In this document: piece after piece, positions 4,030 to 27,148 of the stretch
Layout: each line of letters begins with the position of its first letter
How positions within the stretch are numbered: position 1 is the stretch's first letter
Origin: a bacterium
Lineage (GTDB): Bacteria > SM23-81 > DAOVCL01
DNA length: 27,148 nt
Reading direction: 5' to 3'
NCBI GenBank assembly: GCA_029932675.1
Contig: JAOZPP010000018.1
Location: forward strand, 1-27,148
Notes under the pieces: generated by a model
Told to the model about the DNA's origin: nothing
The model's database searches: none
What the model saw: the letters and a program-made list of their open reading frames with translations, nothing else
Made by a program: the position numbers and the translations under genes

Positions 4030-5097
4030 TCAGGGGACAATGATGACCGAGTTCTCTTCGCCAAAGGGATTGGAAACGACCCGGGGATTATGGGGGTCTG
4101 TTATCCACTTCCCATTTACCACCAATCTGTACTCATATCTGCCTTTGCCCAAGGGCAGAAACCGGCTCCACCTTCCGTCTTGATCCCTTTTCAACTGGGC
4201 CCCTTCACCCATCTTCCAGTTGTTGAAATCCCCGACCAGTTGAACATCCTTCGCCTCTGGGATCCGATAGGAGAAGAAGACACCATCCTCCAATACTTGC
4301 GGACCAACAATTTCCAATTCCGCCTTTTCACCCCAAACCTTTCCGCTGATCACCTCCTCAGTGAGTTTGCTGTAGTCCTTGTATCCATTTGCTGTCCTGT
4401 CGAGTTTGGAGATGGGTATCCTCTTCAGGGACGCCTCCCGCAATTTTATATTTGCGTGGATAACGGTGGTGAAGACCATCCCCGCAAAGCGTTCCCGGAT
4501 TCTCTCTAAGATCTCTTTGGCCAGTTTGGTGCGCCGGTCATAGATGGTGGCGAGGGCAGCCACCCTTAGCTGGTGGCCCGCTCTCTCCCTCAGCACCCTG
4601 GTCGTCTCTAAGAGCTTGTCCACCCCATGGAGGGAGAAGATGCTGGTTTCGATGGGGACGATTACCTCATTACAGGCCCGGAGGGCGTTGAAGGTGAGAA
4701 GGCCAATACTGGGAGGGCAGTCGACGAGGAGATAGTCATATGGAGTAGAAAGGGATCCCAATGCCCGGTATAGTCTTGCTTCCCTACCTGGTCTTCCCGA
4801 GAGTTCCTGTTCTAAGGCGGAGAGGATAACGCTGGACGGAGCCAGGTCAAGATTGGGAAGAATGGGTTGGATGATTTCGTCCAAGGTGACCGAGGTGGAT
4901 GAATCGGAGAGGACATCATACATGTTCCTCTCCACTTCCTCTGGATTACCCTTTAACCCTAAGGTGGCATGGGCCTGGGGGTCTAGGTCGATGAGAAGGA
5001 CCCTTTTCTCCCTTTCTGCCAAACAGGCAGCCAGGTTTATTGCCGTGGTTGTCTTTCCACATCCCCCCTTCTGATTGGCAATGGCTATCCTTCGCAT
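4030..5097 (-). CDS. ParA-family ATPase fused to a C-terminal CBM48/AMPK-beta glycogen-binding domain
   Basis: 355 residues. Residues 1-252 are a canonical ParA/Soj ATPase: deviant Walker [10 protein letters not shown] (10-18), DLDPQAHAT (37-45), Walker-B strand LLVDCPPS (123-130). Residues about 262-355 form an early-set glycogen-binding domain of the AMPK-beta type. It holds FNNW (W294), YRLVVNGKW (R324, W331) and N349, which line up with the sugar-contacting Trp, Lys, Trp and Asn of the AMPK-beta domain, so binding to an alpha-glucan is plausible. The ribosome site AAGGAG lies 5 bases before ATG, 9 bases after the DUF3467 stop. ParA proteins normally move DNA or protein cargo over the nucleoid. 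A carbohydrate-binding tail suggests positioning of glycogen or another glucan, or use of the sandwich as a protein-binding module. Domain calls are strong; function is inference. Confidence 0.9.
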
Positions 5098-11398: not shown

Positions 11399-12403
11399 CT
11401 ATCTCTGGGATTCTGAGTAGGAGAGGGTAAGGTTACGCCCAGAGTTTTTGGCTTTAAAAAGGGAGATATCGGCCTTGTAGATGAGTTCCTCTACTGTCTT
11501 TGCATCATCGGGGAGGGTAACTCCGCCCAGGCTGGCGGTTAGCCTCCCCTTTGGTTGAAGTTTCTCGCCGGGGAAGGGATAGTCTTCCACATTGGCCCTT
11601 ACCATTTCCATCAGTTCCTTACAGTTCTTTCCATTCGCTTCAGGCATAATGAAAACGAATTCTTCTCCTCCATACCTGAAGGGGATATCCACCTCCCGCA
11701 ATGAACTTCTCATTATCGCAGCCACCTGTTTTAATACCAAATCCCCTTTCTTTTTACCCTCCCTTTGGTTGTAGAGGTCAAAGAAATCCAAATCGAGAAT
11801 GGCCAAAGATAGATACCTTCCAAATCTCTTGGCCCGTTGCACCTCTTCTTTTAACCTCATTGAAAATGAGCGGTAGTTGTAGAGGCCGGTTAATTCATCG
11901 ATATGGGAGATCTTCTCCAATTTTTGGGCTTGATTGATATTGGCGATGGCCACTGAGATCATATTGGAAAAGATGGTAAGTAGCTCTAAATCCATAGGGG
12001 TAAAGGGTTCCTGCTTCAACTTATCCCCCACCGCCAAAATGCCCAAAAGCTGATCTGGGGAACCTATGGGAACTAGGACCTTGAATGGGTATCCCTGGAG
12101 AGGAAGAGGGTTACCCTGTTGAAGGAGATGACTTAATAGGGGGTCCTTTTCTCCGATGCGCCACTTTCCGCTTTCCTTGGCTCCCTTGGAATAATTGGCT
12201 CGGAACCCCCCTTCCTTTTGGGGAAGGAGAACAGCAGCACTTCTACATTTCAACTGTCCCAATATGGTCAAAAGGAAGGAGTTGAGCAGTTCCTCTAAGT
12301 CTCCTAAGAATTTTACCCTTCCACTCAGAAGGTAGAGGTCATGAAGGCTGTATGCCTTTCTCTTTAGTTCCCTATCTCTTGGTTTGCTTCGTGATACCCT
12401 CAT
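11399..12403 (-). CDS. GAF-GGDEF diguanylate cyclase
   Basis: 334 residues, cytosolic. A GAF-like sensor domain occupies about 25-157 and is joined by a short helix to a GGDEF domain (about 160-330). The active site is GGEEF (245-249) and the product-inhibition I-site RxxD is REVD (236-239), exactly five residues ahead, so it should make c-di-GMP and be feedback-inhibited. The DxDxFKxxND motif is altered to DLDFFDLYNQ (Lys to Asp, final Asp to Gln) while the guanine-contacting Asn212 remains. The ATG shares one base with the stop of the STAS gene (TGATG), indicating translational coupling and a job in the same pathway. Last gene of the signalling cluster. Confidence 0.92.
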   Translation of the reverse strand: MRVSRSKPRDRELKRKAYSLHDLYLLSGRVKFLGDLEELLNSFLLTILGQLKCRSAAVLLPQKEGGFRANYSKGAKESGKWRIGEKDPLLSHLLQQGNPLPLQGYPFKVLVPIGSPDQLLGILAVGDKLKQEPFTPMDLELLTIFSNMISVAIANINQAQKLEKISHIDELTGLYNYRSFSMRLKEEVQRAKRFGRYLSLAILDLDFFDLYNQREGKKKGDLVLKQVAAIMRSSLREVDIPFRYGGEEFVFIMPEANGKNCKELMEMVRANVEDYPFPGEKLQPKGRLTASLGGVTLPDDAKTVEELIYKADISLFKAKNSGRNLTLSYSESQR

Positions 12404-13077
12404 CAGTCCTTGTATCTTTCGATAAACTTCTCCTTACGGCTAAATCTCAATCTCCTCCTCTTGCTCTTTAACCCCTTTTCCTTCAATATCCTTCTGATTT
12501 GCCACCAACTGAGGGATCTGGTTTCATCCAATCTCTTTACATCCCTTTTGATACCTGAGATGCTCAGGAATGGATTTTCCTTAACTACTTGAAGAACGAC
12601 CTCTTCGTCGCTCATCTTCTTTAATTCCTTGACCTTAGATTCCTCCTTAGAAGATGCTTCTGCTCTCCTCTTTTCAAACTCTTCCTTAATTTCCTCGGCC
12701 TCCTCCACCTTAAAACTGGGTTCTACCCCAAAGTCCTTTTTTGCTTCCTCCAGGCTGTCATACGCCTTGAGGATGGTGTCGAATTCTAAGAGTTCAAAGA
12801 CTTCATAAACCTCCGGTATCATCCTTACCAGCTTTATATCTCCCTTATTCAGCCTTATCTCCCTGATGTTAGAGATGAAGATCCCCCAGCCAGCACTGCT
12901 GATATATTCCACCCCGGCTAGATCCACGATTACTTTGTACCTTTTCTGGTCAACGAGGGAATTCATTACCTTTTCCAGTTCGGTAGATGTAGTTGTATCT
13001 ATTACCCCATCCACCCTTACTATAGAGATCTCGTTGTTCGGTCCCTCGGCATTCAGTGATATTCTGATGTCCTCCAT
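12403..13077 (-). CDS. STAS-domain anti-sigma-antagonist-like protein with C-terminal winged-helix DNA-binding domain
   Basis: 224 residues. Residues 1-115 are a STAS domain (VDGVIDTTTSTELEK, VIVDLAGVEYISSAGWG) of the SpoIIAA/RsbV kind; Ser60/Ser61 in ISSAG are the expected phosphorylation site. A charged helical linker (116-152) leads to a C-terminal basic winged-helix-like domain (156-224, with VVKENPFLSISGIKRDV and WWQIRRILKEKGLKSKRRR). This resembles the second DNA-binding domain of IS481/IS3-type transposases and aligns with residues 718-780 of the SpoIIE protein of the same cluster. The usual STAS antagonist is a bare domain, so this fusion is unusual: the phosphorylation switch could act directly on DNA instead of through a sigma factor. 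GGAGG lies 4 bases before ATG. Substrate relation to the upstream kinase/phosphatase is inference from synteny. Confidence 0.88.
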   Translation of the reverse strand: MEDIRISLNAEGPNNEISIVRVDGVIDTTTSTELEKVMNSLVDQKRYKVIVDLAGVEYISSAGWGIFISNIREIRLNKGDIKLVRMIPEVYEVFELLEFDTILKAYDSLEEAKKDFGVEPSFKVEEAEEIKEEFEKRRAEASSKEESKVKELKKMSDEEVVLQVVKENPFLSISGIKRDVKRLDETRSLSWWQIRRILKEKGLKSKRRRLRFSRKEKFIERYKD

Positions 13078-13188: not shown

Positions 13189-13479
13189 TTATGGCTGCTT
13201 TTTCACCGGGAAATCGGAGATGTATGTATTGTTGATGGCAAAGCTGAGTATCTCCGCCTTACTGTATTCCCCATACCCGTTGTTTCTCAATCCTTCTTGT
13301 AGTTTCCTTATCCTTTCCACATCCTCTGCCTTTAAGAGGACTGTAACCTTCATCCATTTCCCTTTTCCTGGTTCGGGGTCGAAATCCGGTTCATTGCCTA
13401 AGGAGAGCAATCTACCTAAACTCTCCTTTTCCCCTTCTCGGGTGAAGATATCAGTTCCTATTCTCCTTCTCCCAGTCAT
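13189..13479 (-). CDS. Small ribbon-helix-helix-like partner of ParA
   Basis: 96 residues. A basic, flexible N-terminus (1-42) precedes a segment KVTVLLKAEDVERIRKLQE followed by GEYSKAEILSFAINN (44-84), which has the strand-helix-helix pattern of RHH/CopG-type DNA-binding proteins. Small RHH proteins with a basic tail are the usual centromere-binding partners of short ParA ATPases (the ParG/Omega type), and the tail often stimulates the ATPase. The start lies inside the parA 3' end (29-base overlap), with GGAGG 9 bases upstream, so synthesis is coupled to ParA. No ParB-type domain is present. Role as partition adaptor is inference from size and context. Confidence 0.75.
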   Translation of the reverse strand: MTGRRRIGTDIFTREGEKESLGRLLSLGNEPDFDPEPGKGKWMKVTVLLKAEDVERIRKLQEGLRNNGYGEYSKAEILSFAINNTYISDFPVKKQP

Positions 13480-14209
13480 AATTTAGCACCTCCTCGGTTA
13501 ATAGATAGTAATCCTGGGAGCCATAGGAATAAGGAGCATATTCGAAGATTGTTTTATGAAACCCAGGGGCTTCTTTAAGTGACGTATTCGTCCTAATTAC
13601 GGTCTTAAACACTTTTTCTTTAAAGTGTTGTTTGAGGGTATGTAATACTTCATGGGATACTCTTGTACGGGAATCAAAGAAGGTGGGTAAGATCCCCCAT
13701 AGTCTCAATTGATGGTGCAGCCTTTCGTTTACCTCTGCGATGATCTCCAATGTCTTTTTTACCCCTACCATACCTAAGAAATCCATACTCACCGGTATTA
13801 TCGCGTAATCGGCAAAGGTAAGGGCATTGATGTTGATCAAATTCGTAGATGGTGGGCAATCGCAAATAACCCAATCAGAGCCCTTCAAGTTGGAAAGCAC
13901 CTTTCTCAACCTCAGTTCCCCCCCTTTTCTGCGGGCAAGCAATGTTTCAGTCTCAGCCAACTTCCTTCCTCCGGAGTCAATAAAAAATAGGTTTTTGCGC
14001 ACCCCCAGGATATCAACTTTTCCCCAGAGGAGGAGATCCGGCAGGGTTTGGTTTCCATAGATGTCAAAGATTGTGGCTACGTTTCTCTGCGGATCACAAT
14101 CTATAAGCAGGACCTTCTGACCGAACATTGCTAGTCCATAGCTTAAATTGATAGCAGTAGTGGTCTTTCCTGTTCCCCCCTTGGAGGTGACAATAGCGAT
14201 TTTTTTCAT
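13451..14209 (-). CDS. ParA/Soj-family ATPase
   Basis: 252 residues with the intact deviant Walker A SKGGTGKTTT (9-18), DCDPQRNVAT (37-46), and the Walker-B strand WVICDCPPS. It has no N-terminal HTH, so it is a short ParA (type Ib or orphan kind) that binds DNA non-specifically in the ATP state. It is directly followed by the small RHH-like gene, and its ATG abuts the TAG of a 30-codon upstream ORF. Located inside a partner-switching cluster and away from any visible replication origin, it may position a protein complex or surface apparatus instead of the chromosome. Its cargo cannot be told from sequence. Confidence 0.92.
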   Translation of the reverse strand: MKKIAIVTSKGGTGKTTTAINLSYGLAMFGQKVLLIDCDPQRNVATIFDIYGNQTLPDLLLWGKVDILGVRKNLFFIDSGGRKLAETETLLARRKGGELRLRKVLSNLKGSDWVICDCPPSTNLININALTFADYAIIPVSMDFLGMVGVKKTLEIIAEVNERLHHQLRLWGILPTFFDSRTRVSHEVLHTLKQHFKEKVFKTVIRTNTSLKEAPGFHKTIFEYAPYSYGSQDYYLLTEEVLNYDWEKENRN

Positions 14210-14302: not shown

Positions 14303-17080
14303 TTATTGCTTCCTCTGGTTGATCTTCCTCTTCAACTTCTGGGCATATTTTGACCAATCCCTCTCTTCAGGTTCAGGGAGGGAAGGTTCCAATTGTTTCA
14401 CCTCCAGCCCATCAATTTCCTCCTGCCAGTCCTCCTCTGCCGAGACCTCTACCACCTCTTCCTCCCAGCTCTGATCTTCCTCCCCTGCGGTCTTCCGCTG
14501 GAGGAGCTTACCCTTAAGTTCATTAACCAGCTTCTCCGCCTTTTCCGCAGGCGCTACTTTTTTCAGTTCTTTTAGGATGGAGCCGTATATCTGGACGTCC
14601 TCTTTACTTAACCCAACTTCCTCTTCCATAGGAGTAATTACTTCCGGTTGAACGGGCTCAGCCTCCTCTTGGGGAACTTGGGCTAACCTCTCTTGTCGCT
14701 CCTTCTCCCTCTCCAGTTCCCTCTTCAGCTTCTCATCCAAGAATCCCTTAGTTCGTTTAACAAATTCCAGCCTTTTTAGCTTTGTATTAAGCCGTAGGCT
14801 CTTCAATTCCTGGTAAATCCTCACTTCATCCAACTTTGTGAAACCATATTTCTCTGTGTTCAGCTCTTCAGCGATCCTCTTTGCCCCAAATTGAGGATGT
14901 TGCCTGATTATATCTAAGATCTTATTCCGATCCTCCAAGCTAACCCTCTTGATTACCTCGGCGGAACGAGACACCTTATCCAAGAGGCCCAGCTCACCAA
15001 ACCTTTCCATTCTCTTTTTATATCTGTAATAAGTGGAAGGAGATACATTGCTTTTCTCACAAGCAACTTTAACAGGAACTCCTGATTCCACCATCTCAAT
15101 TAATTTTTTCCTCTCCTTAAGCAGAACGTCATCGGCCATCTTCTTTTCCTTTATGGCCACTAAGGTGATATCGTCGTTCTGGGGGGCATTTCCGGTAAAC
15201 TCGGAGAGTGCCCCTTCAAGTTTCTCCACAAAGTCCTTAGGGGAGAGGTGACCATATTCCCTGATTAGATTGAGAAACCTCTCCTCGCCGAACTGCTCCT
15301 TACTGCGATTCATCGCCTCTGTTATTCCATCGGTGTAGATGACCAACATATCGTCCTTCTTCAGCTTAATGTTTTCTTTCCTAATCGATTTCTCGAATGA
15401 GTCCTCTTCCATGAGGTTAAGGCCTACAGGTATCCCCTTGGGATTGAGGAAATAAGTCTTCTTTGTTTCACCACGATAGAGGATCATCGGGTTGTGACCA
15501 GCGCTGGCGAAGTTTATTATCCGGCGTTTGGAGTCCAAGATAATATAAAAGATAGTTACAAACATCCCCTTTTTCACATCATCGGAAACGAAGTTGTTCA
15601 CCTTAGCTAAAACATCGGCTGCTGACTTGTTCCCCCTTGCTTCCAGCCTCAAGGCGGTGCGGATCATTGTCATTACCAAGGACCCCGGCACGCCTTTTCC
15701 AGAGACATCGGCGACCACTATCCCCAAAGTGTGATCATCCACCCAGACGAAGTCGAAATAATCTCCTCCCACCTCTTTTGCTGCCCGGTAGATGGTGCTT
15801 ATTTCATAACCTTCCACCTGGGGAAATTTCGATGGCAAAAGGGTGTGTTGGATCTCTTGGGCCACCTGCATCTCCTTCTGAAGCCTTTCCTGCTCTAAGA
15901 CATTCTTTTGGGCCTGTTTGAACTTGAGGGTGATCTCGTTGAAAGCCCTGGCTATCTCACCGAATTCGTCATTGCTCTCTACAGGTATCCTCGATTCTAA
16001 ATCACCGTTTCCTATCTCCAAGACACCCTTGGTGAGCTTCTGAATAGGTTTGACGAAGAAATTGGAGAGCAGATAGATGGCCACAAAGCCAGCAATCAGC
16101 CCTAAGATGGCGATGAGGAAGAGCCCCTTGCGAGCCTCGGCCACCCTGTAGCTAATCGCCTCTTCGGGGAGGCCCACATGGACGGCCCCAATTACTTTCC
16201 CCTTAAGCTTTATCGGTTGGGCAAGGTCATAGATGGCCCTGCCCTCCTTGGTGGTAAAGAGCTGGGGATCTCCGTATTTTGAGGGTTCGATCCCCGGGGG
16301 AGGGTTATATTTTGTCATTATCTTGTGCACGTCGGAGTGGGCCCAAATTGTGCCCTCCTCATCAAGGATGAGGGCATAGACTAAATTTGAACTTCCTCCC
16401 ACTGTGCCCTTGATCAAGTTGGCCATATCCAAATCGTAGCCTAAGACAAGAAGGTCAGCGCTGCTCGCCGCTAAGTTGCCTGCCACCCCGAGAGCGTCCT
16501 TGAGGAGTTTATCCCGGAGGGACCCAGCCACTTGGCGGCTGAAGTAGGAGTAGACCCCAGCAACGATAAAGAGCATTACCAGAGAGCCCCAGAGGCCGAA
16601 TTTTACCCTAATGCTCATCCCTCTTCTCTTTCCTTTCGGCCTCTTTGGTTTCTCAATGTATTTGACCATCCTCAGTTCATTTTCCTCATCCGTGGATTTA
16701 TACTCTACCTCGCTCATTATCTTCCGGATGAGGAAAATGCCCAGTCCACCCTTTCTGCCGGTCTTGATGTATCTCTGCAGGTCGGGAGGGGTATCAAGTT
16801 TGTCGAAGTCGAAGCTGCGTCCCTTATCGATTACCGAAAAGGTGATGTCCGTTGGCTTGATCACCACCTTCAGACCAATATCGCCTTCGGCATAATGGTA
16901 GGCGTGCCTGATTACATTGGTGCAAGCCTCCTCCACGGCCAGTTGGATCCCGGTGATCTCCTTCTGGGGTAGGGAGGTCTCCTCCCGGCAGAGGTGCCCC
17001 ACATAGCGCCGGATCTCTTCCAACTTTTCCTCTTTAGCTGGAAATGTGATGAAGATCTCCTTTACCGGCTTCTTACCCAT
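14303..17080 (-). CDS. Membrane partner-switch protein: HATPase kinase, sensor, HAMP, SpoIIE phosphatase and transposase-type DNA-binding tail
   Basis: 925 residues. Residues 1-145 are an RsbW/SpoIIAB-like HATPase (VEEACTNVIRHAY, DKGRSFDF, GGLGIFLI). TM1 lies at about 161-180, an extracytoplasmic sensor at 181-316, TM2 at 317-340, HAMP at 341-393 and a coiled coil at 394-418. The PP2C-type SpoIIE domain spans 420-645 with all metal aspartates (GGDYFD, ADVSGKG, TDGITEA, NDDITL). A helix-turn-helix follows (654-705: VKVACEKSNVSPSTYYRYKKR, GELGLLDK), then a winged helix (712-775) and an acidic coiled tail (780-925). The two DNA-binding parts match the N-terminal half of IS481-like transposases, without any catalytic domain. 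Kinase and phosphatase in one chain, both presumably acting on the STAS protein encoded downstream, plus a DNA-binding end, is unusual. GGAG stands 6 bases before the ATG, which abuts the PorV-TPR stop codon. Confidence 0.93.
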   Translation of the reverse strand: MGKKPVKEIFITFPAKEEKLEEIRRYVGHLCREETSLPQKEITGIQLAVEEACTNVIRHAYHYAEGDIGLKVVIKPTDITFSVIDKGRSFDFDKLDTPPDLQRYIKTGRKGGLGIFLIRKIMSEVEYKSTDEENELRMVKYIEKPKRPKGKRRGMSIRVKFGLWGSLVMLFIVAGVYSYFSRQVAGSLRDKLLKDALGVAGNLAASSADLLVLGYDLDMANLIKGTVGGSSNLVYALILDEEGTIWAHSDVHKIMTKYNPPPGIEPSKYGDPQLFTTKEGRAIYDLAQPIKLKGKVIGAVHVGLPEEAISYRVAEARKGLFLIAILGLIAGFVAIYLLSNFFVKPIQKLTKGVLEIGNGDLESRIPVESNDEFGEIARAFNEITLKFKQAQKNVLEQERLQKEMQVAQEIQHTLLPSKFPQVEGYEISTIYRAAKEVGGDYFDFVWVDDHTLGIVVADVSGKGVPGSLVMTMIRTALRLEARGNKSAADVLAKVNNFVSDDVKKGMFVTIFYIILDSKRRIINFASAGHNPMILYRGETKKTYFLNPKGIPVGLNLMEEDSFEKSIRKENIKLKKDDMLVIYTDGITEAMNRSKEQFGEERFLNLIREYGHLSPKDFVEKLEGALSEFTGNAPQNDDITLVAIKEKKMADDVLLKERKKLIEMVESGVPVKVACEKSNVSPSTYYRYKKRMERFGELGLLDKVSRSAEVIKRVSLEDRNKILDIIRQHPQFGAKRIAEELNTEKYGFTKLDEVRIYQELKSLRLNTKLKRLEFVKRTKGFLDEKLKRELEREKERQERLAQVPQEEAEPVQPEVITPMEEEVGLSKEDVQIYGSILKELKKVAPAEKAEKLVNELKGKLLQRKTAGEEDQSWEEEVVEVSAEEDWQEEIDGLEVKQLEPSLPEPEERDWSKYAQKLKRKINQRKQ

Positions 17081-18901
17081 CTATTTCTCCATCCCCCTTA
17101 GCCTTGCCTTTGCCTCCTCGAGGTTTCTTAGGGTGTTTCCATTGTTGGGATAATGCTCCAGGACTTTCTTCCAAAGCCTTATGGCCTCACGATAATTCCC
17201 TTGTTGATACTGAGAGAGACCCTCTAAGTAAAGCCTCCACACCTGGGGGTCTTTTCTCAGTTCGGCCAGAGAGGTGGGCTTGGCCGACTTGCCAATGGCC
17301 TTTTGGAGGTAATCCTTAGCCATTTGGTTCCCAGGCTCGACCTCTAAGATGGCGTTGAACTCCAGAATTGCTCCCTTATAGTCTCCAGTTTCAAACTTCT
17401 CCACACCCTTACGGATGTGTTCTGAGACCTTCAGCTTCTCCCTGGCCAGCTTCAAACCTCTCTCTGCCTCCGGATCTCCAGGAAGGAGGTCTAAGAGGCG
17501 GTTATACTCATCGATTGCCCCAATGAAGTTTTCTAAGGTCATATTTTCCTTAGCCTTTCTCCGATGGGAGGCTATCTCCTCTTTGAGGAGCCTTTCGATA
17601 CTTCCCAGGTACTTCCTCGCCTCCTCATTTTGGGGGTCGAGCTTGAGTATCTTTTCAAACTCTTCGATGGCTAAGTTATACTTGCCCCTTTTTCTATACT
17701 CCAAGCCTGATTTTATGTGGCCCTCAATCAGGGCCCTGTTTTTCTCTGCGGCGATGTTGGCGACGAGCTTCTCGTTTATCTCCTGGCTAATGGAGTCTAT
17801 TCTGGCGATGGCCCACTGGTTTTGGGCATCCCAGGCTAAGGCCCTCTGATATTCAGCTATAGCTCCAGAGAGGTCCTCCTTGTGGTAGAGCTCCTCGCCC
17901 CTTTCCATATGGAATTTTACCCTCTCCCTCTTGCGGGCCTCAGCCCTCCTTTGCTCCTCTTCCTGCCTTCTCCTCTCTTCAGCAATCCTCTTCTCCTGGA
18001 GGGTGGAACCAAACCTTGTGGTGAAAGAGATCCTATGGGTGAGGCCCAAGTCCTGGTAGGAGCAAAGGGCATAGTCGATTTGAAAGCTCCGGTAGCTTAT
18101 CCCCCCGCCAATGGCCAATTTCCCTTCATCCAGGCCAGACCTGAGGAAGAAACCCACCCGGGGCTCAAGTTGAAAACCCAGGTGTAACTTGGGGGTACAG
18201 CCCTTCACCTTGTCCATATCGATGGCCAAAATTCCCCATCTCCTTGCCCCGTTAGTCAGATCGTAGCTCAAACCAAACTTGAGGTTGAGGGGGGTTATAT
18301 CTGCCCTCTCCCTCAGTTTGAGGGAGACTCCGCCAATGTCCTGGAGATTTATGCCCCAATTTAACCTTTCCTTTATTCGACGAAGAAGTCCGAGATCGAA
18401 GCTAAAACCTGAGGCGGAGTAAGGACCTAACCTGTGGGTGAGAAACTTAAAGCTTAATCCCCCCTGGAAGGAGAAGGGGAGAGTAGTTCCCCAGGAGAGG
18501 AGGTATTCCGACTGCAGGTTCTCCCAATAATCCAATATTTGAGGACTATCCGTTGTATGGGGGATCCCACCTGTGGAGATCCAAATCCCCCCTAAGCCAA
18601 AGTTCCCCCACCTTAGGGTGGGATATACATATCCGACGAAGTTATAGTTTGTTCCCGCAAAGAGAAAGCAGCGGAGGGCGGTGAGTTCCTGTTGGCCCAA
18701 ATTGTGTAGCCCAGCAGGGTTCCAGTAGATGCTGGTGGCGTCATCGCTGATGGCCACGAAGGCTCGCCCCATCCCCATTGACTTAGCTCCGGCCCCAAAG
18801 CCGAATATGCTCCCCACCCCACCCTCCTCATCAGCAAAGGAGAGGGGTGAAAGCCCAATCCAAAGGGCAAGGAGATATAAAGTTGTTCTCTTTAAGCTCA
18901 T
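17081..18901 (-). CDS. PorV/PorQ-family outer-membrane protein with C-terminal TPR repeats
   Basis: 606 residues. Signal peptide 1-23 (LYLLALWIGLSPLSFA, then DEE). Residues 24-300 are a PorV/PorQ (UPF0164-like) beta-barrel, with the family start GAGAKSMGMGRAFVAISDDA and SIYWNPAGL and alternating barrel strands to FTTRFG. A charged coiled coil (301-330) leads to about five TPR units (332-370, 395-432, 447-482, 494-530, 555-590). PorV-type proteins are outer-membrane factors of the type IX secretion route; the TPR tail probably works in the periplasm, gathering partners or peptidoglycan. No Shine-Dalgarno sequence is seen before ATG. The stop abuts the start of the kinase/phosphatase gene (TAGATG), so an outer-membrane sensor or export component is co-made with the signalling proteins. 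An alternative is a general OmpP1/FadL-like transporter. Confidence 0.88.
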   Translation of the reverse strand: MSLKRTTLYLLALWIGLSPLSFADEEGGVGSIFGFGAGAKSMGMGRAFVAISDDATSIYWNPAGLHNLGQQELTALRCFLFAGTNYNFVGYVYPTLRWGNFGLGGIWISTGGIPHTTDSPQILDYWENLQSEYLLSWGTTLPFSFQGGLSFKFLTHRLGPYSASGFSFDLGLLRRIKERLNWGINLQDIGGVSLKLRERADITPLNLKFGLSYDLTNGARRWGILAIDMDKVKGCTPKLHLGFQLEPRVGFFLRSGLDEGKLAIGGGISYRSFQIDYALCSYQDLGLTHRISFTTRFGSTLQEKRIAEERRRQEEEQRRAEARKRERVKFHMERGEELYHKEDLSGAIAEYQRALAWDAQNQWAIARIDSISQEINEKLVANIAAEKNRALIEGHIKSGLEYRKRGKYNLAIEEFEKILKLDPQNEEARKYLGSIERLLKEEIASHRRKAKENMTLENFIGAIDEYNRLLDLLPGDPEAERGLKLAREKLKVSEHIRKGVEKFETGDYKGAILEFNAILEVEPGNQMAKDYLQKAIGKSAKPTSLAELRKDPQVWRLYLEGLSQYQQGNYREAIRLWKKVLEHYPNNGNTLRNLEEAKARLRGMEK

Positions 18902-19138: not shown

Positions 19139-22100
19139 CTATTTCACTACAGCTATCTTGGTCATTGCCTTCTTCCCCCCGGCCTCAACCTGACAGATGT
19201 AGACCCCATTTCTCACCATTATACCTCGCCCATTTCTCCCATTCCATTTTATGATATTCTTTCCTTCCTTTCCCCCTTCCTCCCCAGCCCTGCGATGGAG
19301 TTTTCTCACTAATTCGCCAGTTAAGGTATATATCCTCAAGGCCACATCGGAGTCCTTGGGAAGATAATAGACTATGTGGGAGAACTGGCTGTGGGGATCA
19401 AAGGGGTTGGGATAGCTGACCAGTGAACTCAGGTCTGCTTTTAAGACCACTAACTTCTTCGACCGCAAGGGGAAGCCCTCTGCAGAGCCGACATAGGCCT
19501 GGCCGATGGGGACCCCCTCCACCATATCTGAGGCCTTAATGCCGGCTGAATCAATCACTACCCTGAAGCTCTTTCCCTCGCCTGTTGGGGAGATATTCAG
19601 GCTGAGGATGAGGGTATCCTTGTAACCAGGGTCTAAAAGAAATGGTGGCGATAGGGCTATCCTGACCTGATCGGCTTGGGATTCTCCCTGCCCAATTACC
19701 TGGGAACCTCTTTTGAGAAAGGCTCCGGTAAGAAATTGTGTTGGATGGAGTGGCTTATTCTTTCCATCGTCTAATCCAAACCTCAGCTCGGTTATCCCTA
19801 CCTTATGACCTTCCTCCCCGTTCTCATTGATCACCTCCAGGCCCAATATATCGACCTCCTCTCCTACACCCACGGAGATGGAGTCCAAATCCAGCGCGGA
19901 GTTCACCAGAAGGGATGGGGCCTCCACCCTGATCTCATCCACCGAGAAAAACTTTTGCCAAGGCGATTCATTGTTCTGCAGCCCATAAAGCCTTACCTGG
20001 GGTGGGTAGGCCTTGGGGTTGATATCCTGGGGAACGGAGTGCGGTTGGAAGCTAATCTCCGTCTCCCCCTCCCCCCACAGATAGGAGGTGGCCGGATTAA
20101 GCCTTGAGAGAAACCCCTGGGGGCCTCCAAATCGGATGAAGGAGGAGTCTGGATCGAGTTGGATAAACGAACTCCCACTATTCTTCACCTTAAGGGAGAA
20201 ACTCACTTCCTCACCAGGGCTGACCACTTTGGGCTTCACCGAGCCCTGAAGGTAGGATACCTTTGCCTCAGTTTTTACCCAAACCGTATCGGTTAAAGAG
20301 ATCGTATCCCCAAACCCCATCCCGTTCTCCCAACCCAAGAGTATAAGTCGGATATCTGTATACTGGGATGGATCAAGTCCCATCAACTTCTGGTTAAAGG
20401 AAAGCAGGGCTGAACCTCCACCAGGTATGTGGGTAGTTGATTTCAAGTAAGAGGAGTAGCCACCCATCTGGATCATTGTCCTTGCCGTGTCCAGGTTGAC
20501 CCCGGCCTCACCCCTGTTCGCTACCTCTAAAGAGAAACCTACCTTTTCCCCCTGATATATCTGCCGAGGGGAAAGGCCTCCTTGATAGACGAGTTGAGCC
20601 CTTCTCTCCACTCTGATCTGAGGCAGATCTGGGGTTGAGCTGGAGCTAAAAAAGAAGGAGTCGGGATAGCCGTTTTCCCACCCCACCAGAGAGATTATCG
20701 GTTTATAATTTCCTGATTTCAGGGAATCGGGGGCTCTCCCTTCAAAGGTGAGAAGGGTTTGGGTCATCACTCCTCGCGGAGAGCTTAGCTTTACTGCCTT
20801 CCTTCTACTGTGATCGAAAGTAGGGGAACCCCCACCGGAGATGATCGGGGGCTCGGTGGTAAGATTGGCCACCAGAGTGTCCCCCTCCTGGTCGAAGATG
20901 ATAAATTTTGATTTGGCCTTCTCTAATACCACATCCGCCTCTCCGGAGTTGCTTACCCACAGCTCAAATACTCCCGGTTTTCCACTGGAGACAACCGTAT
21001 CTTGGCCTCCCACCAGAGTGATTGAAGCAGGGGTCTGAACCAATAGGGCCAAAGGGACCGAAAGTTCCTGGTGAAAAGGTGCACTGTTTTCCTCTCCCAC
21101 TAAGGTGAGGAGTATATCCCAATAACCCAAGGAATCCACCTCTGTGGACTGGAAGCCAATAGGGGTTATTGCGCCATTCCCTTGTATGGTGGTTGTGCTA
21201 TCCAACCAGGCCCTGAATCCGGTAAACTCCAGCTTGGTAGAATCGGGGGATAAAGTCACCTTAGCCTCTCCATTATTTTTCAAGCTTATAGAGAACTTTC
21301 TCATCTGCCCTTGAGAGACCGTATCTGGATCAAGAGAGAGGTATTCCAATGAGGCTGGAATCTGAACTAAGAGGCTCTCTGGCCTCTGAGCCCCTGGAGC
21401 CCAGAGCTGCAGATCGCTGTTTATGTCCCTCCCCCAGGCCTGGGCGTCGATTTTCACCCAACCAGGTGGAGTACTCACCCCTATCTTTAGCCCAAATTGA
21501 TAGGTTTTGGGGTAACCACCACCAACGATGGTATCAGGGAGGGTGCCTATTAGGCTATCCCGGATACCGGCCCCCTCCGGGAGAACCAACTTTAGGCTGT
21601 CTAAGATCGCCTCTGCCCCTCCCTGGTCCTTCACCTCCACCGCCAAGTAAACCCCCTCCTGTCCCTGGGAAACTATGGGGGGGTAGGGGGAGAGGTCCTC
21701 AATGACTATCGACGCTCCCCCCACCGTTTCAATTCCTAAGCTGTCCTGGGGTACAGAGGAGTAGGAAGGTTGGTCGGAGTTTTCATCTAAGGGGAGGGTA
21801 TCAATCTCCACGGTTATGTGGGACCTGGTCGTGGGGTTATCAGGGGCTTTAACCCTCCAGGTGACTGGTTCATGGACCTGAAAGGGTTTGTTTAGGGAAT
21901 CCGTTGTGCATCCAGTTAGACCAAAGTCTATGGAGAGCCTTCCGGAGCCATAAACTCCGGCACGGCCCATATTTTCCACCAAAGCCTCTATGGTGAACTC
22001 CTGCCCAGTGGAGAGGATTCCATCTCGGGCATCAGGTGGGTCGGTAATGGAGAGGCTGAGTCTGAGATCTGACCTGGGAAGGAGGTAAATTTCTATGCTA

Positions 22101-25100
22101 TCCGCTCCCTCTACTGCCTGGCCACTGTTTTCATCCCAGCCCTGGGTGGTAACCTTGAGCCATCTTCCGGCTAAACTTGTATCCTGGGGGGCCTTTACCC
22201 TCCAGGTTACCTCACCCAGAGAAGCATCCTTCTTAGTAGGTTCGTCCGTTAAGTAACCAATAGGGAGGTTAATGGTAGCACTCGTTCCTATAACCGTTGA
22301 GGTGGCAAAGACCTTTGTTCTCACGGTAAAATACTGATCCGTAGAGAGGGTGTCATCCCTGGCCCCAGCCGGTTCGCTGACTTCCACTGTATCGGTTAGC
22401 ACCCCCTTCTCCAGAACAACAACTCCTACTGAATCCCTCCCTTCGCTGACCCAAGCTGTTTGGTCAGAGTTGACATCCAGGGGAGGGTTGGTTAACCTCG
22501 CCACAAGCCAGGAAAGGGGGAGAGGGGTTTCCGGTGCGCTAATCTCCCAGCTCACTGAACAAGTAGGAGCTCCATTAAGGTAGAAGGTGCGCGTGGAATC
22601 CTCAGTCCAGAATCCCACCTCCCCAGTTATCAGGCTAAGCTCTCCAGGGCCGGTTACTCCGGCGGATCCCTTGTTCTCTACCCAGGCGGTGAGAACGAAC
22701 TGTTGATCTGTGGAGAGGGTATCATCTGTGGCCCCAGAAGGGGTGGTGATCTGGGTGGAGACGGCCAAATCGGCTCTCCTTACGGTCTCAATCATAATTG
22801 TATCAATTAAAACACTAACCAAGGCTGTGGAATCTGTATTCTCGTCATTAGGAACCGCGTTCATCCTCATGGTCAGTTCACTAAGGGAAATGGCACTATC
22901 AGGGGCAGAGAGAAACCACCTGACCGTATCCCCTGGGATAAATGCCTGGGAGGTATCGTCGGAGAGGAGGGTAAGGCCGGTGTTGCCCAAGTCGATCTTT
23001 AATCTGCCTGTGGAATCTACTCCTGCTTGGCCTTGGTTGGTGACTAACCCATCCACCTCAAACCACTGGTGGGTGGAGACAACACCATCTCTTGCTCCTT
23101 CAGGGGAGTTAATAAATGAGAAAAGCTTTAAATCTGCCCTCTCTATGGTTTTCACCAGGATTGTATCCAAACTTTGCACTGGTATCCCGCTGTTCTGATC
23201 AATTCCCTGGGCCTCGATGAGGATAATCGAATCTAAGAGGACGGGGACCGATGGTGCCCTTAACCTCCAAGTAACTTTCCCATCTACCGGTTTTTGCACG
23301 GAGTCACTGAGTAAGGTATAGCCTACGGGGTATCTTTCCAAGAAGCCAAGTGTATCTATCAGGTTAGGGGTGGCGGAGATAGTGGCATTCACCCAAAAGT
23401 CCTGATCGGTAGATAATGTTCCATCACTGGCCCCGACTGGACTGCTGATTTGAGCAATAATAGCTACACTTCCCGCATAAACAGTGGTAATGGGGATGCC
23501 CTCCTCCCATCTATTCACCCAGGCATCCGCGTCGGTGTTCTCATCCTTGGGTGGTTGAATTAATCTCACCTTAATTGTATCCAGGGCTTGGCTCGTCTCC
23601 GGAGACTGAACCTCAAATTCGGCCGTATCTCCCACCTCAATTTGGACGGGGTTAGAACCAGAATATAGGGTATATCCTGAAGGGAGGGAGAGGTTTAAAT
23701 AGCCTTGGCCATAGGTTCCGGCTTCACCTAAATTTTCCATCCAGGACTTGAGGGTGAAGACCTGATTGGTAGAAACGGTGTCCTCTGGTGCTCCTGGCAG
23801 GCGAATAATTTCGAGGTTAGTAGAGAGCTCAGCCCTTCTCACTGTAACTACCCAGATGCTATCCTCCCCTTTGTTCACAAAGGCGGGTTGATGGGTGTTG
23901 GCATCCAAGGGAGAGGTGCTTATCTGGGCCGATAACAGCTCAGGTGTTCGGGAGGAATCAGGAGCCGTTACCTCCCAAATGCGGGGGGAGCCAACGGTAA
24001 AATTGATACTGGTATCCTCCGTCGAGTAGCCAGGGGGTAGGTTCAGGGCGATAGTCCCGGAGTCCTCCACTCCTGCCTCCCCTCCGTTAGTAACCAGGGC
24101 CATGACCTGAAATGACTGCTGGGTGGAGAGGGTATCGTCACACGCTCCCGCAGGGGAGTCAATCCATATCGATAGGTTTAAATTGGCCTGGGTCTGCACC
24201 TGGAAGGGGTGGTTACCCCAGATCTCTTCTTCTATCTTTGCCTGACTGGTCAGATCCTCTCCCCAGAAGAACCCCCTGATCGTGGCCGTTCCCAGGGTAG
24301 TCCCCGTGGAATCGACCAGGAAGGCTAAACTGTCAGTTTTCCCACCGGAGATGATGGTACTGCCACTTCCTTCAAACGTTTGGGGTTCCTGGATAGTATA
24401 TTCCCCAGTTACCTCACCACCAATATAGAACCTTACTTTGCTACTATCCAACCTAACGGAAGCATCTCCAGAGTTGGAGATAATCAGAAAGACTTGCCAG
24501 TCAACCCCTTGGTTCTGGTTTACCTTAGATTGGGAGGGTCTTACGGAAAGTAAGTTAATGCCGGCAGGAGCCTCCACCTCCCAACTATCCGTTTGGTTGG
24601 CTCCTATGTCTGATGTAGGATAATTTGAATTGGCATCTCGGCCAAAGATCTTTCCATCCAGAGTGGTTAAGCCTTGGGGGGCATTTCCTTCCACATCAAC
24701 CAAAAAGCTATAAACTGTGTCTTCGGTGCTACCAGGGATTTCGGTCGGGCCGTTATTCAGTTGCACCTGATAATAGGGGCTTACATCAGTGGCCCCCTGC
24801 CAGAAGGTCAAATCAACACTGTCCACGAGAGCAGTTGCTTGACCGTTATTGTCCACAATCAAACTGACTGTTATACCTGACTGTCCCTGATTTACAGTAG
24901 TTGGGAAGGTTTCTATCTTATCCAGAACCAGAGAAGCTGGGGTCTGCACCACCCAGTTGTGGGGTTGGGAAGGGGAGCTGTCTGAGATCTGGTTACCGGA
25001 GTTGGCATCTGTCCCTGTAACAGTTCCCTTGATGGTTACAGTTCCTAGATGGGCGTTATTTCTTACCTTCACCTGATAGGAGAAGGTACGGGAGCTCGAA

Positions 25101-27148
25101 CCAGGGATGAAGTCTGGGTTGCTTCCTGGGGTGACTATATAGTCTGAGGTACGGTTTGTTGTCCCCTGCCAGAAGGTTAACCCCGCACTGCTGATATATG
25201 CTATAGCTCCTCCTGGGTTGCTTACGGTCATAGTTACCGGAATCCCCTGCTGGCCCCGGCTTACTGAGGGATAAGTACAGGAAATGCTTCCGATGCTCAG
25301 ATAGGCAGGGGTCTGAATGGTGACCCAATTGGAAGACGAGGAACCTGAACTCACCGGATTGCCTGAGTTGGCATCTGTGCCTGAGGCATTGCCAGTGAAC
25401 CTTACCGTTCCGTGGTCACCAGAAATAGTGGAGTAAATCCAGACAAAATCCACCGATTGAGCATGGGCGAGGTCAGCGTTGGGTGGTGATGGACCGCTAT
25501 ATAGATGGGCATCTCCTGTTCCAGAAAGAGTTAAAATAGATGGGGTTACACTATCCACAGTGGCCCCTCCGTTATTGGTCACGGTCATGGTAACCGAAAT
25601 ATTCTGTCCCTCACTGAGCTGGTTTGGGCTGGCCGCGATTGTCGAGACCAGATCCGATGATGATTGGACTGTCCAGCCGTCGGTCTGACCCGCTGAACTG
25701 TCTGAAGCGGTTGCCCCGGAGTTGGCATCCTGACCGGCTATCAATCCGTCAATGGTGATGTATTCGGGTGAGGCAGTGGGGCTAACATCTACGGTGAAGG
25801 AGAAAGTATCCTGAGAGCCACCCAAAATGGAGTTTGGGTTATCTCCAGCAGGGGTAACGGTATAGTCACCATTTCTGTTGACAGTTCCCGCGGTAAAGTT
25901 CAAACCGGAGGAAGTTATCAATGCCCTTGCTTGCCCTAAATTATTCACGCTCATCGTTACCGTTAACCCAGCTTGTCCTTGGCTAACTACGGTGGGGGAA
26001 GTATAGATGGTGTTTATACTTAGGTTTGCAGGAGTTTGCACTACCCAGGTATCGGCTGTGTTTGCCCCTGAGTCTGAGACAGTATAGCCTGAATTGGCAT
26101 CCCTTCCGGTAGCCCTTCCGTCGATGCCTATGGTCCCCGGAGAGGAGGTTCCCCCTATGGTCACATTGTAGACGAACCTTCCTTTCTCACCTCCGGCTAT
26201 TACCCCTGGCCCGGAGCTGAGAGTTATCCCATACTGGTTATTCCCGCTGGAGAAGACTGGCCCTGTTTGGCTTAAATCCCCTTCTATCTGAGCATTGGCC
26301 TCCCCCAGGTTCAAGACGGTCATCCATACCGTAAGCCCAGTCTGTCCTTGGGAGACGGTATCGGTGGAAGCCCAGACCGAATCTACTGCAAGCTGTGCCG
26401 GCCTCTGCACCACCCACCAATCCGCTTGTTGGGGAGTGTTATCGGTAACTTGCACGGAATTAGACGTTCCATTCACAAACCCACTTATGGTGACCGTGTC
26501 ATCCACGGTGGCCGAGTCATCTGTCTGAACCCAAAAGGAGAGGGTAACTGTAGCTCCGGGGGCTATGCTGTCTGGGTTGGTTGAATTTGCTGTAACGGTA
26601 TATTCGGAGGTCAAATCTCCACTTAGTTTACCGGTAAAGCTGAGACCTGCCGTGTCTAGGTGGGCAGTCCCTGCCCCTTCATTCCTCACGCTCATACTTA
26701 CCGTATCGACCTCTCCCCGGGAGACCAGACTGCGTCTGGTGAAGATGGTGAGCAGGTTTAGTTTCTCCATCCTCACCGTAGTTGTCCCATAGGCATCCCC
26801 ATCCACAGAATGGGCGGCCACTAAAGCCTCTCCTCCAGTGGTGGAGTCGGATTGGAGGGTAAAAGTTATCTTTCCCAAGGAATCCGTGGCTACCTGCCTT
26901 CCTGGAATTGATGGATTGGCATCAGGGGTGGTTATAGAGCCCAAAGTAGTGCTCACTGTAATCAGAGTTCCCGTGCTTACAAGGTTTCCATAAGAATCCC
27001 TTATCTCGGTGGATGTGATAGTAGAACTACTATCACCATTGGCAGGGATAACAGGAGGGTTGGGAGTAAGAATTATGTTGTTAGAGGGGATGCCCGGAAC
27101 AGTGGTGACCGTAAAGGTGACCGTATCGGCAGGGGAAGCCATAACCGC
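19139..27148 (-). CDS. Giant repetitive surface protein with Ig-like repeats and C-terminal sorting domain (5' partial)
   Basis: At least 2,669 residues; the frame is open to the right edge and the Met at 27142 sits inside a domain, so it is not the start. Numbering from that Met: an invasin/Big_1-like Ig domain (about 10-125); 19 tandem beta-sandwich repeats of 109-143 residues (128-2408) resembling CARDB/Ig-like folds, each starting ASLxL-like and carrying a V-x-N-x-G-x-A strand; a different beta domain (2409-2567); and a FlgD-Ig/T9SS type A sorting domain (2568-2667, YPNPFDP, then LRIYTLTGELVRKL and NGVYICQV). Expected to be a long, stiff stalk or adhesin exported through the outer membrane. 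It lies upstream of the PorV-TPR gene on the same strand with a 237-base gap, so it could be a client of that protein. Domain family names are by pattern and moderately sure; the export signal is strong. Confidence 0.9.
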   Translation of the reverse strand, partial: AVMASPADTVTFTVTTVPGIPSNNIILTPNPPVIPANGDSSSTITSTEIRDSYGNLVSTGTLITVSTTLGSITTPDANPSIPGRQVATDSLGKITFTLQSDSTTGGEALVAAHSVDGDAYGTTTVRMEKLNLLTIFTRRSLVSRGEVDTVSMSVRNEGAGTAHLDTAGLSFTGKLSGDLTSEYTVTANSTNPDSIAPGATVTLSFWVQTDDSATVDDTVTISGFVNGTSNSVQVTDNTPQQADWWVVQRPAQLAVDSVWASTDTVSQGQTGLTVWMTVLNLGEANAQIEGDLSQTGPVFSSGNNQYGITLSSGPGVIAGGEKGRFVYNVTIGGTSSPGTIGIDGRATGRDANSGYTVSDSGANTADTWVVQTPANLSINTIYTSPTVVSQGQAGLTVTMSVNNLGQARALITSSGLNFTAGTVNRNGDYTVTPAGDNPNSILGGSQDTFSFTVDVSPTASPEYITIDGLIAGQDANSGATASDSSAGQTDGWTVQSSSDLVSTIAASPNQLSEGQNISVTMTVTNNGGATVDSVTPSILTLSGTGDAHLYSGPSPPNADLAHAQSVDFVWIYSTISGDHGTVRFTGNASGTDANSGNPVSSGSSSSNWVTIQTPAYLSIGSISCTYPSVSRGQQGIPVTMTVSNPGGAIAYISSAGLTFWQGTTNRTSDYIVTPGSNPDFIPGSSSRTFSYQVKVRNNAHLGTVTIKGTVTGTDANSGNQISDSSPSQPHNWVVQTPASLVLDKIETFPTTVNQGQSGITVSLIVDNNGQATALVDSVDLTFWQGATDVSPYYQVQLNNGPTEIPGSTEDTVYSFLVDVEGNAPQGLTTLDGKIFGRDANSNYPTSDIGANQTDSWEVEAPAGINLLSVRPSQSKVNQNQGVDWQVFLIISNSGDASVRLDSSKVRFYIGGEVTGEYTIQEPQTFEGSGSTIISGGKTDSLAFLVDSTGTTLGTATIRGFFWGEDLTSQAKIEEEIWGNHPFQVQTQANLNLSIWIDSPAGACDDTLSTQQSFQVMALVTNGGEAGVEDSGTIALNLPPGYSTEDTSINFTVGSPRIWEVTAPDSSRTPELLSAQISTSPLDANTHQPAFVNKGEDSIWVVTVRRAELSTNLEIIRLPGAPEDTVSTNQVFTLKSWMENLGEAGTYGQGYLNLSLPSGYTLYSGSNPVQIEVGDTAEFEVQSPETSQALDTIKVRLIQPPKDENTDADAWVNRWEEGIPITTVYAGSVAIIAQISSPVGASDGTLSTDQDFWVNATISATPNLIDTLGFLERYPVGYTLLSDSVQKPVDGKVTWRLRAPSVPVLLDSIILIEAQGIDQNSGIPVQSLDTILVKTIERADLKLFSFINSPEGARDGVVSTHQWFEVDGLVTNQGQAGVDSTGRLKIDLGNTGLTLLSDDTSQAFIPGDTVRWFLSAPDSAISLSELTMRMNAVPNDENTDSTALVSVLIDTIMIETVRRADLAVSTQITTPSGATDDTLSTDQQFVLTAWVENKGSAGVTGPGELSLITGEVGFWTEDSTRTFYLNGAPTCSVSWEISAPETPLPLSWLVARLTNPPLDVNSDQTAWVSEGRDSVGVVVLEKGVLTDTVEVSEPAGARDDTLSTDQYFTVRTKVFATSTVIGTSATINLPIGYLTDEPTKKDASLGEVTWRVKAPQDTSLAGRWLKVTTQGWDENSGQAVEGADSIEIYLLPRSDLRLSLSITDPPDARDGILSTGQEFTIEALVENMGRAGVYGSGRLSIDFGLTGCTTDSLNKPFQVHEPVTWRVKAPDNPTTRSHITVEIDTLPLDENSDQPSYSSVPQDSLGIETVGGASIVIEDLSPYPPIVSQGQEGVYLAVEVKDQGGAEAILDSLKLVLPEGAGIRDSLIGTLPDTIVGGGYPKTYQFGLKIGVSTPPGWVKIDAQAWGRDINSDLQLWAPGAQRPESLLVQIPASLEYLSLDPDTVSQGQMRKFSISLKNNGEAKVTLSPDSTKLEFTGFRAWLDSTTTIQGNGAITPIGFQSTEVDSLGYWDILLTLVGEENSAPFHQELSVPLALLVQTPASITLVGGQDTVVSSGKPGVFELWVSNSGEADVVLEKAKSKFIIFDQEGDTLVANLTTEPPIISGGGSPTFDHSRRKAVKLSSPRGVMTQTLLTFEGRAPDSLKSGNYKPIISLVGWENGYPDSFFFSSSSTPDLPQIRVERRAQLVYQGGLSPRQIYQGEKVGFSLEVANRGEAGVNLDTARTMIQMGGYSSYLKSTTHIPGGGSALLSFNQKLMGLDPSQYTDIRLILLGWENGMGFGDTISLTDTVWVKTEAKVSYLQGSVKPKVVSPGEEVSFSLKVKNSGSSFIQLDPDSSFIRFGGPQGFLSRLNPATSYLWGEGETEISFQPHSVPQDINPKAYPPQVRLYGLQNNESPWQKFFSVDEIRVEAPSLLVNSALDLDSISVGVGEEVDILGLEVINENGEEGHKVGITELRFGLDDGKNKPLHPTQFLTGAFLKRGSQVIGQGESQADQVRIALSPPFLLDPGYKDTLILSLNISPTGEGKSFRVVIDSAGIKASDMVEGVPIGQAYVGSAEGFPLRSKKLVVLKADLSSLVSYPNPFDPHSQFSHIVYYLPKDSDVALRIYTLTGELVRKLHRRAGEEGGKEGKNIIKWNGRNGRGIMVRNGVYICQVEAGGKKAMTKIAVVK
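19919..21355 (-). repeat. Class C repeat block of the giant protein (4 units)
   Basis: Units begin at residues 1930, 2039, 2182 and 2293. They keep the N-x-G-x-A strand but replace the D-A-N-S-G motif by G-[WE]-E-N-[GS] (GLQNNES in the last). One class A-like unit (1810-1929, with GRDINSD) sits between the B and C blocks, and one transitional unit (860-985) between A and B. Confidence 0.75.
21716..24187 (-). repeat. Class B repeat block of the giant protein (7 units)
   Basis: Units begin at residues 986, 1104, 1225, 1336, 1457, 1581 and 1691. Each opens with P-x-G-A-x-D-[DG]-T-[LV]-S-T-[DQ]-Q-x-F and most carry D-x-N-[ST]-[DG] near the end and a linker of ETVRRADL type. Units 1225 and 1581 lack the N-x-G-x-A-G-V strand, a shared variant that suggests they arose together as part of a multi-unit duplication. 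Confidence 0.85.
24566..26761 (-). repeat. Class A repeat block of the giant protein (6 units)
   Basis: Units begin at residues 128, 249, 372, 496, 613 and 736. Shared features are S-x-G-Q-x-G-[IL]-x-V near the start, a strand V-x-N-x-G-x-A, TF(W/T)xG(T), and near the end G-x-D-A-N-S-G then a WVVQTPA linker. Units are about 117-124 residues. Confidence 0.85.

Follow-up and report, generated by a model that had tools for sequence, protein, structure and literature searches.

The closest described scheme to the locus analysed here is the HsbR-HsbA-HsbD system of Pseudomonas aeruginosa, which consists of one kinase/phosphatase, a STAS protein, and a diguanylate cyclase (PMC5085249). HsbR carries both the kinase and the phosphatase in one protein and acts on the anti-anti-sigma (STAS) protein HsbA; HsbA that is phosphorylated on Ser56 binds the diguanylate cyclase HsbD and drives biofilm formation (PMC5085249). 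In SiaABCD, also from P. aeruginosa, a PP2C phosphatase with a HAMP domain, a kinase, a switch protein, and a diguanylate cyclase are likewise encoded in one operon (PMC7647112, PMC8457831), and SiaC activates the cyclase SiaD by direct contact (PMC8457831). The RsbU-RsbW-RsbV and SpoIIE-SpoIIAB-SpoIIAA systems also have a HATPase kinase, a PP2C phosphatase, and a STAS protein with a conserved serine. Partner switches of this kind are usually regarded as free protein-protein exchanges, and we know of no HTH on HsbR, on HsbA, or in SiaABCD.

The window (the whole stretch of 27,148 nucleotides that was analysed) encodes a system with the same parts, in which the enzyme and its presumed STAS substrate share one DNA-binding-type domain (Table 1). 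HsbR is a response regulator without Cache or HAMP domains, whereas the window's enzyme has both of these and no match to a receiver domain in the domain search. HsbA has another partner, FlgM, and we saw no FlgM counterpart at the window's system. The kinase and the phosphatase are separate proteins in SiaABCD and are fused in the window; the family matched by the window's STAS protein is PF01740, and its matches up to E = 1 include no SiaC-type family (the families listed are the STAS families PF01740 and PF13466, the HTH, and weak unrelated matches). As in RsbW/RsbV/RsbU-type systems, there is a serine at the DS(A/S)G position, a HATPase_c_2 domain, and a PP2C/SpoIIE domain with the conserved motifs (GGDYFD, DVSGKG, TDGITEA, and NDDIT). 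In contrast to the RsbU-RsbW-RsbV and SpoIIE-SpoIIAB-SpoIIAA systems, the two activities of the window's enzyme are fused and membrane-bound, both the enzyme and the STAS protein have an HTH, and no sigma factor is conserved nearby: we found none among the annotated or recurrent neighbours, and one might be encoded elsewhere in the genome.

We consider it probable, if by no means assured, that this is an HsbR/HsbA/HsbD-like partner switch to which a DNA-binding module has been added, and that a sister clade makes two STAS products by way of an A10 tract. The membrane sensor unites a kinase (HATPase) and a phosphatase (PP2C) in one polypeptide, and would add phosphate to Ser61 of the STAS protein and remove it again. 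The state of the STAS protein would then set its partner. The diguanylate cyclase encoded next to it is the most likely candidate, and exopolysaccharide export would be controlled through that cyclase. The added HTH is transposase-like, with a RED-like half on the STAS protein and a full PAI-RED pair on the enzyme in one large lineage that includes the window. This HTH likely binds DNA, so that the switch would act on, or sit at, chromosomal sites. Each of the ingredients is known, and it is their combination that is new. The initial annotation knew of no described partner switch of such build, and our search of the open-access literature (subscription papers were outside it) also turned up no paper on a partner switch with such an HTH or on a STAS gene with slippage. 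The arrangement matters because a module that is conserved across whole phyla would link a partner switch to a captured DNA-binding domain of transposase type, present on the enzyme and on its presumed substrate alike.

Table 1. Features of the locus, with positions in the window; E values are from domain searches.
Feature	Positions	Strand	Evidence
GAF-GGDEF diguanylate cyclase, overlapping the STAS gene; presumed output	11399..12403	-	PF00990, E = 2.9e-38
STAS-HTH protein, 224 aa: STAS domain, long helix (aa 125-154), HTH	12403..13077	-	ORF list, domain search, AF2
C-terminal HTH (RED-like half) of the STAS protein, aa 156-224, pI 10.6	12406..12612	-	profiles, AF2, hhalign, pI
STAS domain, aa 1-117	12727..13077	-	PF01740, E = 6.5e-18 (aa 15-112); fold match to SpoIIAA (1thn_B, Z = 19.3)
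Ser61, presumed phosphorylation site (ISSAGWG)	12895..12897	-	alignment to TM1442 (YMDSAG)
Small protein, 96 aa, between ParA and STAS; no confident family; seen only in the window's genus	13189..13479	-	
ParA-type ATPase between the enzyme and STAS	13451..14209	-	PF13614, E = 7.6e-38
Kinase/phosphatase, 925 aa: HATPase_c_2 - TM - Cache - TM - HAMP - PP2C(SpoIIE) - HTH tail	14303..17080	-	
Second HTH (RED-like) of the enzyme tail, aa 712-785, common to the STAS protein	14726..14947	-	HTH_32, E = 9.9e-7; hhalign
First HTH (PAI-like) of the enzyme tail, aa 648-702; no counterpart in the STAS protein	14975..15139	-	HTH_28, E = 5.7e-8; AF2 and fold matches
PP2C/SpoIIE phosphatase domain, aa 396-645	15146..15895	-	PF07228, E = 1.1e-48
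HAMP domain, aa 337-382	15935..16072	-	PF00672, E = 3.4e-13
sCache_3_2 sensor domain, aa 196-317, flanked by two predicted TM segments	16130..16495	-	PF17203, E = 2.1e-12; hydropathy
HATPase_c_2 (RsbW-type) kinase domain, aa 13-140	16661..17044	-	PF13581, E = 8.3e-28
PorV/UPF0164-like beta-barrel and TPR protein, conserved upstream neighbour	17081..18901	-	strong TPR-family matches, weak UPF0164 match
Very large protein with repeats and, by eye, a T9SS-like sorting signal at its C terminus; conserved neighbour in the operon	19139..27148	-	

The initial annotation had placed the phosphorylation at Ser60/61. In an alignment to TM1442, the equivalent of the phosphosite is Ser61, and Ser60 occupies the position of the usual aspartate. 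Both serines are invariant among 82 relatives.

Compared directly by BLASTP, the tails of the window's enzyme and STAS protein do not match (E = 2.7), so their resemblance is not significant from the window alone. At the level of family profiles, the two tails do match (hhalign, 97.9%, E = 3.4e-13 over 71 columns), and the alignment pairs aa ~707-779 of the enzyme with aa ~149-218 of the STAS protein, which are almost exactly the ranges that had been proposed to share a domain. An HMM built from enzyme tails only found 42 of 85 STAS tails at E < 1e-3, an HMM built from STAS tails only found 46 of 49 enzyme tails, and neither HMM matched any of the reversed decoys. Furthermore, the window's enzyme tail used as a single query already detects STAS tails in relatives, with E values as low as 2e-12, which means that the link is not a product of circular profile building. 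The profile-profile comparison and a survey of co-occurrence, which had been suggested as checks, thus both bear out the shared domain.

For the survey, we scanned a genome collection, which gave 364 candidates, and retained the best 80 loci; their labels are mainly Zixibacteria, KSB1, and Calditrichota. Among these best 80 of the 364, the STAS protein has the HTH tail in all 80. In one KSB1-labelled phylum, the domain is present in every one of the 61 genomes surveyed (all at least 85% complete), and another phylum has it in 85 of 97 genomes. Genomes of the KSB1-labelled phylum mostly have three copies of the domain; among the matches listed, two are in STAS-sized ORFs and one is in an enzyme-sized ORF. 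Most genomes of this phylum have a second STAS-HTH protein. In one of them, the second STAS-HTH gene (L041:9078-9851) lies directly before polysaccharide-export-like and Wzz/CpsD-like genes. In a separate locus (L213:6819-7832), the STAS-HTH protein has ~120 extra residues ahead of the STAS domain, and we saw no enzyme alongside it.

What kind of domain is shared? AlphaFold2, run with fetched relatives, gave a model of the STAS-HTH protein (pLDDT 91.6) with the STAS domain at 1-116, a 30-residue helix, three helices at 157-167, 173-183, and 191-200, and a C-terminal helix at 206-222 that is basic. There are no strands after residue 116 in this model, and the model of the enzyme tail has no strands either, so a beta wing is absent from both. 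The name "winged helix" in the initial annotation is therefore unsupported, and the models instead show a tri-helical HTH with a basic C-terminal helix. The enzyme tail was modelled as two tri-helical HTH units (pLDDT 88.4). Its top fold matches include TnsB (8rdu, Z = 6.8), Pax5 (1k78) and Pax6 (6pax; both Z = 6.6), and Tc3 (1u78, Z = 5.6), and there are further bipartite matches to Drosophila paired, IstA, Mu, and the RED subdomain of Sleeping Beauty; with Z of 4-7 overall, these matches are middling and would suit other HTHs too. Foldseek alone gave no E below 0.1 with the enzyme tail, and a sequence search of the PDB with the enzyme-tail profile gave weak matches only (best E = 0.014). At the sequence level, aa 657-772 in the enzyme tail (HTH_28 plus HTH_32) match NF033577, a model of IS481 transposases (E = 8.7e-15). 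Taken together, the fold matches and the IS481 match point to a bipartite, paired-domain-like PAI-RED unit on the enzyme, of which the STAS protein has the second (RED-like) half only. A fold search with the whole STAS-HTH model returned a list filled by STAS domains; the STAS HTH resembles the RED fold, as judged by its profile match to the enzyme tail and by the same order of helices. It also has a weak match to HTH_Tnp_Tc3_2 at aa 161-211 (E = 2.8e-4, under the cut-off).

The PAI-RED order of the enzyme tail is that of the Pax paired domain and of the bipartite HTHs of Tc1/mariner, IS481, and TnsB, with the RED-like half alone on the STAS protein. Unlike in transposases, the HTHs are fused to signalling proteins, and domain-model searches of the enzyme and of the STAS protein found no catalytic (DDE) transposase domain in either. 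The tail of the window's STAS protein is strongly basic (Table 1) versus an acidic STAS domain (pI 4.6), and among 76 relatives the median pI of this tail is 10.3, with 97% above 9. Given the basic charge and the type of fold, the HTH tail is likely to bind DNA, although RNA or protein is also a conceivable target for a basic HTH. The earlier proposal of a shared DNA-binding module stands as regards the fold and the charge; it needs to be narrowed in that only the second of the enzyme's two HTHs is shared.

It might be that transposases of one kind gave the enzyme and the STAS protein their HTHs in separate events, in which case the sharing would be uninformative about a joint function. The enzyme tail is indeed near to real transposases (E = 2e-21 to a 345-aa integrase-like ORF), and the enzyme has both HTHs while the STAS protein has one. 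Also, a midpoint-rooted tree is compatible with a later, one-step gain of the enzyme tail, with a support for the tail clade of only 0.63. Independent capture does not sit well with the results for the window's genome, where the matches of the STAS-tail profile are the enzyme tail (E = 8.7e-16), the STAS protein itself, and a second STAS protein, and include no transposase. We regard independent capture as doubtful.

Alternatively, the HTH could be a docking domain for proteins: the tails of the enzyme and the STAS protein would heterodimerise and so bring the kinase/phosphatase to its substrate, with no DNA involved. That the STAS-tail profile finds the enzyme tail and nothing outside the system in the window's genome, and that the pair usually co-occurs, would fit such a role. 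But in one large, monophyletic clade, the enzyme ends after the PP2C domain and the STAS protein retains its HTH (42 distinct loci with an A tract, described below, and four without), so an enzyme tail is not needed there as a dock. In these tailless loci, we found no HTH ORF beyond the STAS one in any other frame. Heterodimerisation through the domain, which the initial annotation had raised, is therefore not a general mechanism, and the strongly basic charge and the DNA-binding fold of the tails also argue against docking as their main role. We consider pure docking to be quite improbable; the tails may heterodimerise where both exist.

In 46 distinct loci of the tailless group, a tract of 9-11 A lies between the STAS domain and the HTH, and in 39 of them it is exactly A10. 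The enzyme is included in 42 of these loci and is tailless in all 42, while the tract is absent from all 51 distinct loci with a tailed enzyme. In the window's STAS gene, for example, the longest A run at the junction is 6. Four tailless-enzyme loci lack the tract; in one of these, the STAS protein (L214:7117-7977, minus strand) has two matches of the STAS-tail type. Within 389 kb of A-tract loci there are 48 runs of at least nine A or T, and 46 of them are at the STAS-HTH junction. Codon bias was ruled out as the source of the tract, as lysine codons in the same genes are split 117:121 between AAA and AAG. (The loci with A9-A11, mostly A10, are L069, L071, L073-L075, L077, L080, L086, L109, L110, L113, L115, L206-L211, L216-L220, L222-L234, L239-L245, and L250-L252.)

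After the tract, the HTH is in the same frame as the STAS domain in half of the loci (23 of 46, "fused") and in another frame in the other 23 ("split"); in 22 of the 23 split genes, it is in the -1 frame. About one-third of the split genes have no ATG, GTG, or TTG in the HTH frame past the tract (within the stretch examined). Split and fused genes have similar first residues past the tract in the HTH frame (VTRLTVVD-like), which makes it probable that this frame is already being translated directly past the tract. In the fused genes, both of the other frames reach a stop within 17 codons. Sequencing error was ruled out as the main cause of the split genes, since the tract is conserved in 46 distinct loci and in most of the split genes the frame is lost although A10 is unchanged.

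Nine consecutive A are known to induce transcriptional slippage, and in Thermus dnaX half of the product is the short form (PMC1088944); the dnaX of Chlorobi carries A10 (PMC3711429). At the STAS tract, there was no signal for a downstream hairpin (mean z = -0.17), and we saw no SD-like stimulator by eye, so we prefer transcriptional slippage over stimulated ribosomal frameshifting. The tract and its frame relations suggest that slippage makes STAS proteins with and without the HTH from one gene in the tailless clade. Like the dnaX genes of Thermus thermophilus and Chlorobi (PMC1088944, PMC3711429), the STAS genes of this clade would combine a conserved A9-A11 tract with products that differ at the C terminus. 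Unlike in dnaX, slippage would add or remove a DNA-binding-type domain, and the coded frame flips between species.

The tract might instead serve phase variation, by slippage during DNA replication rather than during transcription or translation. A10 is mutable, and the split or fused state flips at least eight times on the tree (clade support 0.99). Against this, the tract is retained through these flips, its length is nearly fixed, in most split genes A10 is preserved and the frame is shifted by changes elsewhere, and the HTH-frame peptide past the tract is similar in split and fused genes. We consider phase variation to be very improbable. If the tract is a site of transcriptional slippage, then a signalling system joins the short list of bacterial genes that use it.

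A more specific version of the added-module reading is that the partner switch is tethered to DNA and that recoding sets the share of it that binds. One lineage would have captured a PAI-RED unit on the enzyme. In the sister clade, with its fixed A10, slippage by RNA polymerase would set the ratio of chromosomal to cytosolic STAS protein, which in turn would control c-di-GMP and exopolysaccharide. We put this forward tentatively, as a possible reading that falls somewhat short of probable.

The gene neighbourhood bears on what the switch controls. In Zixibacteria, the usual order is a large secreted protein, the PorV-like/TPR protein, the enzyme, (ParA), STAS-HTH, GGDEF, Wza, Wzz, a TPR protein, and a CpsD-like protein. 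The diguanylate cyclase gene thus adjoins the STAS gene: they overlap in the window, and in most Zixibacteria loci the cyclase gene is next after STAS. By analogy with HsbA and SiaC, we infer that the STAS protein acts on the cyclase in Zixibacteria and in the window. The output must vary between lineages, since in KSB1 and Calditrichota loci STAS is usually followed by a gene other than a diguanylate cyclase. The enzymes of these two groups also have a long extension, which contains TPRs in the one that we tested (L089). Overall, the module adjoins genes for a diguanylate cyclase and for exopolysaccharide export, in phyla of which hardly any members have been cultured.

The same neighbourhood could be explained if the STAS-HTH protein were a classical transcription factor whose binding to exopolysaccharide and secretion promoters is controlled by phosphorylation of Ser61 or by capture by the enzyme; the cyclase would then be merely co-regulated. 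The protein has a basic HTH and a place in exopolysaccharide operons, and KSB1 and Calditrichota loci lack the GGDEF neighbour. Furthermore, the exopolysaccharide part of the window's genome is on a separate contig, together with a further STAS protein that has two HTHs. However, we found no shared operator: a search of the intergenic regions of the two STAS loci for a recurrent DNA site, shared k-mers, or palindromes gave nothing convincing. The adjacency of STAS and GGDEF, conserved in Zixibacteria and overlapping in the window, and the precedents of HsbA and SiaC also favour a direct action on the cyclase. We think that a purely classical transcription factor is somewhat unlikely. In the partner switch with an added DNA-binding module, which we prefer, the HTH could steer transcription, position the complex (as the ParA neighbour may hint), or both.

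In Zixibacteria, most loci with a tailed enzyme encode ParA between the enzyme and STAS, and loci with a tailless enzyme lack it. The presence of the tail switches a single time on the tree, so this counts as one evolutionary comparison and not several.

Two other genes of the window's genome deserve mention. The second STAS protein (L040:8677-9915, minus strand) has a long charged stretch between its two HTH units and is encoded inside a Wza/Wzz/CpsD exopolysaccharide locus. Within the window, another ParA-type ATPase (4030-5097, minus strand) has an apparent C-terminal stretch that, by eye, resembles the glycogen-binding CBM48/AMPK-beta domain.
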